From positions 1 through 26,003 of IMG/VR virus record IMGVR_UViG_3300025322_000144: a stretch of 26,003 nucleotides of DNA; one strand, 5' to 3'. Positions 3,225 to 6,871 of the stretch are shown piece after piece. Each line of letters starts with the position of its first letter. Position 1 is the first letter of the stretch. Both the position numbers and the translations under genes were made by a program. Source of the DNA: a virus. The notes beneath the pieces were generated by a model. The model had not been told where the DNA came from. It searched no databases and saw only the letters and a program-made list of their open reading frames with translations.

Positions 3225-3413
3225 TTATCCTCTTTCTATCAGATTAGCTCTGACTAGTCTGTTTAATTCCTTCTCTTGAATTATATCATGAGAGTTATGT
3301 CTTGTCAAGGTGAATGTCAAGGATTGATACTTAACCATGACATGCGAACCTTTGCAATATCTAATTTCACAACCACGATTGACAAGCAATTTTTCAAGAT
3401 CACGGTATCGCAT
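3225..3413 (-). CDS. Orphan HicA-like mRNA interferase-fold protein
   Basis: HicA/YcfA toxins are about 60-80 aa double-stranded-RNA-binding-fold ribonucleases with a G-S-H catalytic motif, then a beta hairpin ending in an R/P-H-x motif, and a C-terminal helix. This 62-aa protein has KGSH (about residues 21-24), the beta pair ending LTRHNSHD (about 36-43), and the final helix KELNRLVRANLI, in the right order and spacing. A HicB antitoxin is not seen on either side. The neighbour upstream is a peptidase-like gene. It could act as a host mRNA cutter during infection, or be an inactive RNA-binding relative. The fold call is reasonably firm; the activity is inference. Confidence 0.75.
   Translation of the reverse strand: MRYRDLEKLLVNRGCEIRYCKGSHVMVKYQSLTFTLTRHNSHDIIQEKELNRLVRANLIERG
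3280..3308 (-). promoter_or_regulatory. Consensus sigma70 promoter inside the HicA-like gene
   Basis: The minus strand has TTGACA, 17 nt, TATAAT, a full match, with the predicted start near 3273. A second TTGACA lies 12 bp further upstream as a direct repeat (plus-strand TGTCAAGG at 3303 and 3315), which may be a regulator site. Confidence 0.7.
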
Positions 3414-4259: not shown

Positions 4260-4289
4260 TTTAACTCCTATCATTATATTGTTATCTTA
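4260..4289 (-). repeat. Repeated leader, copy 2
   Basis: This intergenic stretch starts at the stop of the Gp88-like gene and ends with AGGAG for the 59-aa gene. It shares an AT-rich core with copy 1 at 4045-4078, and a shorter third match (TTTACTCCTATTGTT on the plus strand) lies before the 43-aa gene at about 5520-5534. It contains TATAAT but no good -35. Confidence 0.5.
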
Positions 4290-4964
4290 TCGTACCACAA
4301 AACCACTAATATCTTTTTTAGCTTTACCTTTGGGTTTTAATCCTATCACACTAGATGGACTATCTAAAAACCTTAAATCGTTATCATCGCCACTAACCAC
4401 AGTATATCCATGCCATTTATTAGGCATACTTTCAAACAATACTGCTACACTTCCACCACAAGATAATACTTCAAGACATTGGATATCATTTAATTCTGAT
4501 CTTGAAAAGGTAAGATGGTAATTTTTAGGTAACAAGCCTGATAGAAATTTTATCATCATACTCAGGCTTTTTGTATAATCATAGAATTGGATATTGTGGA
4601 ATTGCTCGAATATGTTAAAGATCGTCCAATTTAAATCTGACGTTCCATTTAATCTTACCACAGGAATAAAACCTTTTTTTCTAGCATACTTCTCAAAGTT
4701 TTTAATCTCTCTTTTCAACTGAGATATAAAACTTTCTCTATCGTTAAAGAAGTATTCAGTTTTTCTTTTTCTAGCATTCTGAATACTGTTAAATTGACCC
4801 CTGCCAGCAGTATTCAAGCAAGTAGAAACACACCCAGGACTAGCGTATGGGCATACATTATGCCCACTAGTGTTACTTGGCGATAAATACAGGATTGCTG
4901 TCATATACCCCTGTTTTTGGCCCTTAACGGTTTTATAATTCTTGTCAATGTTTAATAACTTCAT
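4287..4964 (-). CDS. Phage Gp88-like protein
   Basis: The product matches the Gp88-type phage protein (first named from mycobacteriophages) in motif order. It has MTAILYLSPSNTSG, then CPYASPGCVSTC with cysteines at about residues 38, 45 and 49, then TAGRG, a basic RKRKTEYFFNDR helix, PVVRLNGTSDLNW near 101-113, QFYDYTK, and LTFSRSELN. The length (225 aa) is normal. The invariant cysteines suggest a metal centre, and the later motifs suggest an enzyme, but no activity is established. The TAATG start couples it to the zinc-ribbon microprotein upstream. It is the largest gene in the leftward arm. Confidence 0.85.
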   Translation of the reverse strand: MKLLNIDKNYKTVKGQKQGYMTAILYLSPSNTSGHNVCPYASPGCVSTCLNTAGRGQFNSIQNARKRKTEYFFNDRESFISQLKREIKNFEKYARKKGFIPVVRLNGTSDLNWTIFNIFEQFHNIQFYDYTKSLSMMIKFLSGLLPKNYHLTFSRSELNDIQCLEVLSCGGSVAVLFESMPNKWHGYTVVSGDDNDLRFLDSPSSVIGLKPKGKAKKDISGFVVR

Positions 4965-5133: not shown

Positions 5134-5328
5134 TTATATACCTTTTTCTATTTGTTTCCTAACATACTCTCTAAACTTATCTTCACTAAATCTTGTGTTA
5201 TCCTGAGCAAGTGTATTGATTAATTTATCGTAAACTGATGAGACTCCATCCAATTCTGTTTCATTTTTGACATCCAGAATACTTTCAGCAATTACGTTTG
5301 CCAATTTTATGTAGTCTTTTCTCGTCAT
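5134..5328 (-). CDS. Hypothetical 64-aa helical protein
   Basis: The product is acidic, helical and typical of small phage early proteins (MTRKDYIKLANVIAES at the start, REYVRKQIEKGI at the end). An AGGAGAATAAA site precedes the ATG. A TTGACA-N17-TAGGAT promoter-like sequence ends about 20 nt upstream, so it would be first on a short-leader transcript. No family beyond the generic helical type is recognised. Confidence 0.7.
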   Translation of the reverse strand: MTRKDYIKLANVIAESILDVKNETELDGVSSVYDKLINTLAQDNTRFSEDKFREYVRKQIEKGI

Positions 5329-5383: not shown

Positions 5384-5515
5384 TCAATTCCGATTTTTAG
5401 GACATTCAATATCGTGTACTTCTTTTAGGTAAATTTCTAATGCACTATCCAACGTAATATTCTTGTTTAGACTCAGAATACATATATAGTCGAATTCTTG
5501 TTGTGTTAGGTGCAT
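5384..5515 (-). CDS. Hypothetical 43-aa protein, first in the leftward operon
   Basis: This small frame has an ATAGGAG site before the ATG and ends about 7 nt before the -35 of the next promoter. The product is acidic with helix-forming stretches (LTQQEFDYICILSL, DSALEIYLKEV). It is the gene nearest to the origin region and may be the first translated on the leftward transcript. I do not recognise it. Confidence 0.6.
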   Translation of the reverse strand: MHLTQQEFDYICILSLNKNITLDSALEIYLKEVHDIECPKNRN

Positions 5516-5543
5516 TTTTATTTACTCCTATTGTTTATGGTTA

Positions 5544-5633
5544 GTGTCATTTAATAGGTTTAATATGCAATAGCTATGCCATGCCTATTATTTGCATAAA
5601 TATATGATTTAATTACTGTACAATAAATGACAC
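5544..5633. repeat. Long-spaced 10-bp inverted repeat
   Basis: GTGTCATTTA (5544-5553) and its reverse complement TAAATGACAC (5624-5633) flank 70 bp of AT-rich sequence with no gene. The pair lies upstream of the leftward operon, so a dimer or looping regulator is possible. No convincing promoter hexamer pair is seen in the stretch 5516-5700. Confidence 0.5.
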
Positions 5634-5702
5634 ACTATGTAAATATGTAACCAATTCCACAATATCATGACAATAATTGACACAATAAGACTTGATAGGA
5701 CA

Positions 5703-5816
5703 AGTGTACATTATTGTACACTATAGCATATTACTATAGCATAGTATAATGTATAACATAATGCTATATACAATATATAGGGCTTGCTATAATATGTTAC
5801 ATACTATATATAGTAT
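5703..5816. repeat. AT-rich palindrome and direct repeat cluster (possible unwinding region)
   Basis: There are three elements. The first is an 8-4-8 inverted repeat, AGTGTACA-TTAT-TGTACACT (5703-5722). The second is an 11-bp direct repeat, ACTATAGCATA (5720-5730 and 5733-5743). The third is a perfect 16-bp palindrome, ATACTATATATAGTAT (5801-5816). The whole stretch is nearly pure A+T and directly precedes the DnaA-box array, as expected of a duplex-unwinding element. Confidence 0.6.
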
Positions 5817-5823
5817 AGTATAG

Positions 5824-5923
5824 CTGTTGATATCCTGTTGATATGCTGTGATTATCCTGTGATTATCTTGTGGATATCCTGTGAATAAACCTGTTGATAT
5901 CCTGTGGATAACCTGTGTATAAC
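5824..5923. other. Replication origin candidate: nine tandem 11-bp DnaA-box-like units
   Basis: Nine consecutive units follow one another: 5824, 5835, 5846, 5857, 5868, 5879, 5891, 5902 and 5913. All are 11 bp except the sixth, which is 12. The pattern is roughly CTGTKGATAWC. Units 6, 8 and 9 contain TGTGAATAA, TGTGGATAA and TGTGTATAA, whose reverse complements fit the bacterial DnaA box TTATNCACA; unit 8 is the exact TTATCCACA. A spacing of about one helical turn puts all sites on one face. The left neighbour is an AT-rich palindrome zone, and transcription diverges from here in both directions. Direct reading of the repeats is firm; the origin role is inferred. Confidence 0.75.
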
Positions 5924-5939
5924 TTTGCCCTTACCCAAG

Positions 5940-5970
5940 CCACCCCACCCCAGGCCAGGGGGAAGGGTGG
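5940..5970. other. GC-rich hairpin beside the iterons
   Basis: CCACCC (5940-5945) pairs with GGGTGG (5965-5970) and CCCC (5948-5951) with GGGG (5958-5961), with a CA/GAA internal loop and an AGGCCA tip. It stands out in an AT-rich zone. No T-run follows on either strand, so a classical terminator is unlikely. A primase or single-strand initiation hairpin is a possibility. Confidence 0.6.
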
Positions 5971-6072
5971 TCAGATGGGGACTGAATTTTCGCATACTTT
6001 TGCATAGAACCCTATCCCACAGGGTTGTGGTAGAATATATTTTCAATAACCCTCCTTTTTTGGTCAATAAAC

Positions 6073-6102
6073 TTGACTTTGGCACTTTCAATATGATATA
6101 AT
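6073..6102 (+). promoter_or_regulatory. Strong rightward promoter for the late/morphogenesis arm
   Basis: TTGACT (five of six) is separated by 18 nt from a perfect TATAAT, and TGA precedes the -10 to give an extended TGnTATAAT element. It is the only convincing promoter facing the structural genes in the window. Predicted start is near 6109. Confidence 0.7.
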
Positions 6103-6150
6103 TATAGTATACACTTCAATCATACCTTCATCATCTTCATTAAATCTGAA

Positions 6151-6178
6151 TTATATATTATAATAATATAATATATAA
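6151..6178. repeat. 12-4-12 AT palindrome in the leader of the rightward arm
   Basis: TTATATATTATA (6151-6162), spacer ATAA, then TATAATATATAA (6167-6178) form a perfect inverted repeat. It lies between the rightward promoter and the first plus-strand ORF, so it would be in the leader RNA, or could be a protein-binding site. Confidence 0.6.
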
Positions 6179-6198
6179 AACCTCCTATAATAATAACA

Positions 6199-6393
6199 AT
6201 GAATATAATATTAAAGACTATAACTTATTTTAATAATAAAATAAACAAAAAACTCACTTATATATATAATAATATTTATACTTTTGATTTGGTGGATTTA
6301 TTATTATATATTGTATTGATTATATTATTCTTTCCTGTATTATATTTATTTACAGGAATTCTTACATTAATTAAATTCATTTATAAATATTAA
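6199..6393 (+). CDS. Small membrane protein candidate (64 aa)
   Basis: The frame encodes a polar, Asn- and Lys-rich head followed by a hydrophobic stretch of about 30 residues (LVDLLLYIVLIILFFPVLYL and onward) that would cross the membrane once or twice. There is no purine-rich ribosome site before the ATG, and the region is AT-rich, so the frame could be fortuitous. Its place just after the main rightward promoter and before the metallopeptidase-like gene makes a real small membrane protein plausible; a holin is conceivable but unsupported. Confidence 0.4.
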   Translation: MNIILKTITYFNNKINKKLTYIYNNIYTFDLVDLLLYIVLIILFFPVLYLFTGILTLIKFIYKY

Positions 6394-6415
6394 TATTCAT
6401 TGGCAGGAGTTGGTT

Positions 6416-6871
6416 GTGCATAGGATATTATTTGATGTCCCATACGAAATAATTAAATCTTTTGAATCAAGAATATTAATTACTAAAATAAAAAAAGATT
6501 TTACTATATTACAATTGTTTAATGAATTGATTAAAGTAATTAAATCCAAACCTATTATCCTGATTGAAAAACTGGGGGGGATTTGTGGTACGAATTGGGA
6601 AGAGGAAGGCCCCCACAGAGAAGATATTATTAAAATTGATCCAAGACTTCGCTTGGCAGAACTCCCAGGGGTTTTAATACATGAGTTATTTCATACTCTA
6701 TTCCCTCAACTTCATGAGAATGAAGTATTATCTCTGGAATTTATGTTTGTGAAAAAAGCTAAGAAATGGCAAATAAATAAGATTGTAAACCTTTCGGTGC
6801 AGTATTGTAAACTTGATTTTCGGTTTTATATTAAAAGGGTTCATGTAAAAAATATTCTAAAGAGGAAATAA
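6416..6871 (+). CDS. HExxH zinc metallopeptidase-like protein (151 aa)
   Basis: The central part contains LIHELFHTLFP, an HExxH zinc motif at about residues 89-93, followed by LHENEV, which may give further ligands. The preceding stretch GPHREDIIKID is beta-like. This is the signature of small zincin-type peptidases such as those in SprT- and M78-like phage proteins. I choose GTG at 6416 because GGAG lies 6 nt before it; a TTG at 6410 lies directly against the same site. The gene joins the small terminase by TAATG. A run of seven G within the frame (about 6574-6580) could be slippage-prone. Prohead processing is possible by position, but no substrate is shown. Confidence 0.7.
   Translation: MHRILFDVPYEIIKSFESRILITKIKKDFTILQLFNELIKVIKSKPIILIEKLGGICGTNWEEEGPHREDIIKIDPRLRLAELPGVLIHELFHTLFPQLHENEVLSLEFMFVKKAKKWQINKIVNLSVQYCKLDFRFYIKRVHVKNILKRK

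Follow-up and report, generated by a model that had tools for sequence, protein, structure and literature searches.

Does a tandem series of DnaA-box-like units, lying between the two divergent gene arms of a phage, mark the place where host DnaA starts replication? The question is raised by positions 5824 to 5923 of the viral record IMGVR_UViG_3300025322_000144, analysed here over a stretch of 26,003 bp (hereafter the window), for which a preliminary description made from the letters alone had proposed a phage origin consisting of nine 11-bp iterons with DnaA boxes. The best single reading is that the array forms the DnaA-binding core of a phage replication origin, a reading to which we give slightly better than even chances. 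Host DnaA very likely binds such a sequence and likely assembles on it; that the array is an origin is less safe a conclusion, since boxes of this kind also occur at inferred or predicted terminal repeats and at record ends. Box identity, phasing, location at the divergence point and the gradient of the units spoke for the proposed origin, and the end-placed boxes of isolates against it.

The array and its flanks

TRF reported the array at 5824-5921 (period 11, 8.8 copies, 78% matches, score 96), the highest score among the 21 rows obtained for the window. Eight of the nine units measure 11 bp and unit 6 (5879-5890) measures 12 bp, which causes a one-base slip of the register; the boxes are separated by 2 bp, with one exception of 3 bp. 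Read 5' to 3' on the plus strand, units 1 to 5 are CTGTTGATATC, CTGTTGATATG, CTGTGATTATC (twice) and TTGTGGATATC, and units 6 to 9 are CTGTGAATAAAC (the 12-bp unit), CTGTTGATATC, CTGTGGATAAC and CTGTGTATAAC. From the first to the ninth, their inner 9-mers match TGTGGATAA at 7, 7, 6, 6, 8, 8, 7, 9 and 8 of 9 positions, a trend from weak units at the left to near-consensus units at the right. Six units are degenerate and three hold an exact TGTGNATAA box (starting at 5880, 5903 and 5914, all on the plus strand and thus TTATNCACA on the minus strand), with no other exact box in the 26-kb window.

The number of boxes is in itself ordinary, as three or more exact boxes per 26 kb were obtained in 25 of 100 shuffles and boxes with at most one mismatch were not enriched over a reversed control in the four records of the phage family. 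The signal is the clustering of the boxes: three within 5516-6198 were obtained in none of 2000 dinucleotide shuffles of this region, and at lag 11 these shuffles scored 46 at most, compared to 64 for the real sequence. The array as described, nine units of about 11 bp with three boxes, is confirmed, and its periodicity, previously called almost perfect, exceeds all 2000 shuffles at lag 11 but is broken by the 12-bp unit 6. Inspection by eye revealed no obvious DnaA-trio beside a box.

The array lies in a 683-bp divergent region without a convincing gene (Table 1), and the genes of the ORF list on either side point apart, so that transcription diverges there as had been stated. The short leftward ORF at its left edge has a counterpart in a sister species, and the next leftward ORF starts at 5328. 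Two mechanical ORFs that cross the array (5852-6091, minus strand, 79 aa, TTG start; 5904-6101, plus strand, 65 aa, GTG start) were taken as chance. The first large gene on the left (4287-4964) encodes a GP88-family protein (PF17338, E 3e-47), and farther left a 62-aa HicA-toxin-like protein (3225-3413) scores slightly below the Pfam cutoff (26.7 vs. 27 bits). On the right, behind the rightward promoter, a 153-aa protein (6410-6871) carries the HExxH motif HELFH and has no PHROG or Pfam match.

Table 1. Coordinates of the array and of neighbouring features in the window.
Feature	Position	Strand	Basis
Tandem DnaA-box-like array, nine units, one direction	5824..5923	+	TRF, unit reading, shuffles
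Exact TGTGNATAA box, form TGTGAATAA, unit 6	5880..5888	+	Box scan
Consensus DnaA box TGTGGATAA, unit 8	5903..5911	+	Box scan
Exact TGTGNATAA box, form TGTGTATAA, unit 9	5914..5922	+	Box scan
Short ORF of 43 aa, leftward, bounds the 683-bp region on the left	5384..5515	-	By eye, below ORF-list cutoff
Hydrophobic ORF of 64 aa, first of the rightward genes, bounds the 683-bp region on the right	6199..6393	+	ORF list, alignment
Palindromic AT-rich zone on the left flank of the array, possible unwinding element	5700..5823		Fold, stability profile
Least stable DNA of the window by the stability profile (6149-6248 and 6296-6395, 100 bp each), other possible unwinding region, coding in part	6149..6395		
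GC-rich block, G tracts at its end	5926..5980	+	Alignment, fold
Conserved element GGGGACTGAATTTTCGCATACTTTTGCATAG, 31 bp	5977..6007	+	Alignment with the sister records G001/G002
Sigma-70-type promoter TTGACT-N18-TATAAT, TG before second hexamer, rightward	6073..6102	+	Scan, alignment

Unstable AT-rich DNA flanks the array on both sides. The AT-rich palindromic zone noted on the left is supported by its fold, which was equalled by only 3 of 200 shuffles (z -2.6), and includes 5722-5821, which the stability profile ranks fourth among the 100-bp stretches of lowest stability picked in the window; the least stable DNA begins about 225 bp rightward, beyond the GC-rich block. This block preserves its C-rich-then-G-rich order in the sister species. 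A GC hairpin, earlier described as a flank of the array, can be drawn there, yet 119 (plus strand) and 135 (minus strand) of 200 shuffles fold as well, and the differently shaped hairpin of the sister species was matched by 184 and 160 of 200 shuffles; its stability being no better than that of shuffled sequence on either strand in either species, it was dropped as an origin element. Directly after the G-rich tracts found in both species comes the conserved element GGGGACTGAATTTTCGCATACTTTTGCATAG, with 28 of 32 aligned columns identical. The promoter, downstream of the array with 149 bp between them, is identical to that of the sister species at 29 of 30 bases.

GC skew, taken over 5-kb flanks, is -0.23 before the array and +0.19 after it, a local flip at percentile 0.950 in the window and 0.995 in the sister record G002. 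Because gene direction turns at the same place, this reversal is no proof of an origin, and skew cannot separate replication from transcription where both turn at the array. The minimum of global cumulative GC skew had given a seemingly strong result for closed array contigs but proved misleading, as a minimum at the contig start is trivial; the local flip percentile was therefore used.

Relatives of the window and their genes

A terminase search of IMG/VR returned nine loci, among which three belong to the species of the window and hold the same three exact boxes. Two others, G001 and G002, represent a single sister species (86% TerL identity to the window). These two records share 28.3 kb at 99.8% at one end and 3.0 kb at 100% at the other, from which a circle of about 41.7 kb follows. 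At the syntenic place, the sister species has just two units, TTGTTGATAAC CTGTGGATAAC, which by eye best fit units 7-8 of the window (20/22) and which MAFFT placed elsewhere in the array. Place, consensus box and frame are thus kept between the species and copy number (nine vs. two) is not, a comparison of flanks that involves two species only. Besides two of the boxes, the promoter and the 31-bp element are kept at this place.

The left arm of the sister genome encodes a fusion of Prim-Pol, PriCT-1 and DnaB-like helicase, which was also confirmed in the species of the window, together with a family A polymerase, a Cas4-like nuclease, endonuclease VII, MazG, a dATP/dGTP diphosphohydrolase-type protein and a lysozyme-type hydrolase. 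A pseudopilin-like protein (T2SSG, N_methyl) was also observed in this arm (L019:19506-19922). The PolA of a further record (G003:C1:21815-22818) appears as two matches, one of them with an internal TGA, whereas the same-species record G004 gives one unbroken match; the split may be either an assembly error or a variant.

A six-frame search for DnaA domain IV was negative in all 43 records covered (the four family records and 39 other array records), while 10 of 14 control genomes were positive. As the family records lack this domain, the reader of the boxes would be host DnaA. Likewise, none of the 33 family proteins scanned with Pfam, a subset of the ORFs, matched a Rep or DnaA family, so that a Rep initiator encoded nearby, as in iteron plasmids, was not found among them. 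If the array is read by the DnaA of the host and not by a Rep protein of the phage, the term iteron is a misnomer.

More remote members of the family were sought with a TerL alignment, which gave 13 loci. Two relatives at 49% (L337 and L338) hold only 1.5 and 1.1 kb of upstream DNA, short of the array region; one at 33% (L339) has one exact box and one at 23% (L340) has none. An alignment of Prim-Pol returned the same four records and no further ones. When four distant relatives were read whole, three lacked the exact box, and the fourth, Anabaena phage A-4L, had five scattered matches, two of them being the same site in its two terminal repeats. The whole region had no DNA match among 50,697 phage records, and the array of the window alone had 8 weak ones (best E 7e-3). 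Ten TerL relatives at 26-40% were found in bacterial contigs (Calditrichaeota, LCP-89, Phycisphaerae, Candidatus Hatepunaea and other bacteria), which is insufficient to assign a host.

Phased arrays in other viral records

Three exact boxes with 2-bp spacers were found in at least 120 stretches of IMG/VR, compared to one for the reversed pattern. Grouping of the 120 listed loci by similarity of DNA and protein within 3 kb gives 44 clusters, the largest with 54 members, loci with short flanks being possibly over-split. Among the matches listed, 105 of 120 arrays lie outside ORFs of at least 100 aa, compared to an ORF coverage of 66%. An ORF is present on both sides of 61 listed arrays (24 divergent, 32 co-directional and 5 convergent), and 44 more are at an edge. 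Terminase and DnaA families were searched in the 39 listed records of at least 20 kb, DnaA and PolA also in the four family records; Terminase_6N was found at E<=0.001 in 24 of the 39, with 21 exceeding its cutoff.

Another scan, in which pairs of boxes separated by 0-24 bp were sought, yielded at least 118 further loci with 165 neighbouring pairs, which are neither a random sample nor clustered by kinship. Among the matches listed, gaps of 2, 3 and 4 bp occurred 36, 39 and 12 times, with a second peak at 12 bp (21 pairs) and no pair at 0, 1, 5 or 6 bp; this pattern is helical phasing.

Skew was followed in 21 array contigs of 30-70 kb, of which 7 were dropped for a short flank and 14 were usable with 5-kb flanks. 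The median flip percentile of the latter was 0.91 (one-sided KS p 0.001, uncorrected for kinship, several contigs coming from the 54-member cluster and not all being independent); it exceeded 0.89 in eight contigs and was lower in six, including two at 0.06 and 0.14.

A strict query with a four-copy consensus (E<=0.01) matched 62 of 50,697 phage records, vs. 7 of 72,556 plasmid records. The earlier remark that most lytic phages carry no such array fits the isolates, but arrays recur in many uncultured phages. Our literature search, with partial coverage of subscription papers, found no survey of tandem DnaA-box arrays in phages.

An origin read by host DnaA and its alternatives

The layout recalls E. 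coli oriC where, in the excerpted text of a review that reports the low-affinity arrays of Rozgaja et al. (2011), low-affinity sites 2 bp apart and in one direction become occupied cooperatively, starting at a high-affinity site next to them (PMC4451416). Against that account, the window has in common 2-bp gaps, the same helix face, one direction per array, weak sites near a high-affinity site and AT-rich DNA nearby, so that both a DnaA-box cluster and same-direction spacing of about one helical turn beside a consensus box are found. It differs by having one array instead of two opposed ones, with nine units and three exact boxes, and by its place in a phage genome; the likeness is one of sequence layout.

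By analogy, host DnaA would first occupy the rightmost units 8-9 with their consensus boxes, and perhaps unit 6. From there, a DnaA-ATP filament could grow leftward over the weaker units, as all units share one direction and recur about once per helical turn; in this filament, a one-base step would result from the 12-bp unit 6. The filament might strain and open neighbouring AT-rich DNA, either the left palindromic or the right AT-rich zone, and the phage Prim-Pol/helicase and family A polymerase would enter the bubble, from which forks would leave along the divergent arms. Nucleation at units 8-9 with growth leftward to the palindromic zone would be the simplest version. Binding, opening, loading and replication start at the array are all steps that we infer.

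Several observations fit an origin. The nine same-strand units with three exact boxes lie at a divergence point where skew reverses. The sister species retains two boxes, the promoter and the 31-bp element. DnaA domain IV was found neither in the family nor in the 39 other array records, the Prim-Pol/DnaB-like helicase and PolA are present, and the IMG/VR arrays listed point the same way by their recurrence, helical phasing, placement outside ORFs and skew flips. Against it stand the confounding of skew with transcription, the two units instead of nine in the sister species, the low flip percentiles of six in 14 contigs, the location of the least stable DNA beyond the GC block, the exact box being absent from three of four distant relatives and scattered in A-4L, and the boxes or arrays near ends in isolates and in 5 of 21 contigs.

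Phage replication regions with DnaA boxes are known, among them oriR of P1, and both lambda and P1 combine few boxes with a phage initiator (O and RepA, respectively), whereas no initiator family was found among the scanned proteins of the window's family. For lambda, DnaA is reported to protect two box-like sites downstream of pO in vitro, which likens the ori/pO region to the window by its DnaA boxes (PMC3985674). The description of Pseudomonas phage vB_PseuGesM_254, as excerpted, gives a tailed phage with an Ori-Finder-predicted origin that has DnaA boxes and an AT-rich stretch as in the window; this origin is a prediction only, and tandem phasing does not figure in the excerpted description from which the likeness is taken (PMC11512268).

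The alternative that survives best, although rather unlikely in our view, is that the array belongs to packaged ends, where DnaA or the repeat structure itself would help in end processing or would pause and anchor incoming DNA, on the model proposed for T5 and its injection stop. Ten isolate regions were opened from the 62 matching records, and six have boxes at or near an end. The T7-like Berlinviruses P483, A7, nasanit and NJ2 each have 3-5 exact boxes after the terminase gene, in a stretch where we infer the terminal repeat to lie; in Siara, a terminal repeat predicted by PhageTerm contains two near boxes and a single exact one, and Seahorse has three boxes about 50 bp from the record end, while those of FBKp16, BD5, DC31 and AmPh_EK80 are not placed at an end. 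The terminal regions of Berlinviruses resemble the window in having several CTGTGGATAAC-like units on one strand near the terminase, but these lie downstream of it with irregular spacing, whereas the array of the window lies upstream and between divergent arms. T7 itself is not known to require DnaA, which also counts against an origin. Among IMG/VR contigs, the array is at most 250 bp from an end in 5 of 21 (0.25 expected), G005 has its array within an end repeat of 221 bp, and one contig of the family (L007) begins at about position 6052 of the window. Phage A-4L, related by its portal at 25%, has the two-arm layout with an 810-bp terminal repeat at the divergence point. The injection stop signal of T5 also holds repeats, palindromes and DnaA boxes according to the excerpted description by which it is compared with the window (PMC13250531).

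Two-step DNA entry is, however, a feature of T5 and none is known for the phage of the window, and the A-4L repeat contains one exact box and no array. Six contigs of two species, including the window, run uninterrupted across the array, and no exact end repeat of 20-399 bp was found in the window or in G001-G004, all of which may be fragments whose ends need not be those of the packaged DNA. The TerL of the window has no Pfam match, matches gp17 of the headful packager T4 in PDB (E 6e-8) and shows no detectable similarity to the T7-type TerL of A-4L; it differs from the T7 type, which also sets the window apart from the Berlinviruses.

A second alternative, improbable to our mind, is transcription control, in which DnaA on the array would regulate the divergent promoters and couple phage expression to the DnaA-ATP level of the host. 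The conserved sigma-70-type promoter downstream of the array and the two sites protected near lambda pO, as excerpted (PMC3985674), are in line with such a role, as is the divergent share of the listed arrays (24/61 vs. 24% expected by gap length, p 0.006). Nine consecutive sites nevertheless exceed the need of a promoter, and the 37 remaining arrays lie between co-directional or convergent ORFs. That the array is a sink, which would titrate host DnaA on the model of datA and stop new rounds of host chromosome replication during infection, is quite improbable: many sites on a multicopy genome would suit it, and unit number being immaterial would agree with nine units in one species and two in the other, but it requires neither strict helical phasing, nor same-strand order, nor a fixed place in both species. 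Least credible of all are true iterons that bind a phage-coded protein and merely resemble DnaA boxes, since, although five of nine units match the consensus at just 6-7 of 9 positions, the same tandem 9-mer recurs in at least 44 clusters of viral contigs and neither a Rep- or DnaA-family match (33 Pfam-scanned proteins) nor DnaA domain IV (six frames) was found in the family.

The chief interest of the locus lies in the wide recurrence of phased arrays in phage records and in a use of DnaA by phages that is directly testable. We tentatively propose, while holding it to be less probable than its contrary, that such arrays are a widespread device, arisen or acquired repeatedly in phages without a dnaA gene, by which host DnaA would be docked on phage DNA in filament form. 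In some phages, such as that of the window, this would take place at a divergent origin, in others at a genome end, entering or terminal, and a single host protein would thereby serve replication start, entry or host takeover. If host DnaA starts the replication of these phages, infection would be tied to the cell-cycle state of the host (DnaA-ATP), which can be tested, and oriC-like arrays reduced to 2-9 boxes would offer ready-made minimal substrates on which to test the filament model of DnaA. If the arrays act at genome ends instead, the functions of DnaA would extend to the entry or packaging of phage DNA. Phasing of 11 to 13 bp across many viral contigs moreover gives an independent evolutionary readout of the spacing rules of DnaA boxes.

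Eight of the phage records that match the four-copy consensus are small (4.5-5.6 kb; H21, H27, H43-H46, H64 and H65), five being named Microviridae, microvirus or gokushovirus and three "bajarodmic virus". Microviruses are ssDNA phages that replicate by rolling circle, and the presence of the consensus in records of this type is odd. A 93% match to the four-copy consensus was also observed in a 3,465-bp plasmid of the insect symbiont Palibaumannia (H89, NZ_CP011788.1:3333-3377).
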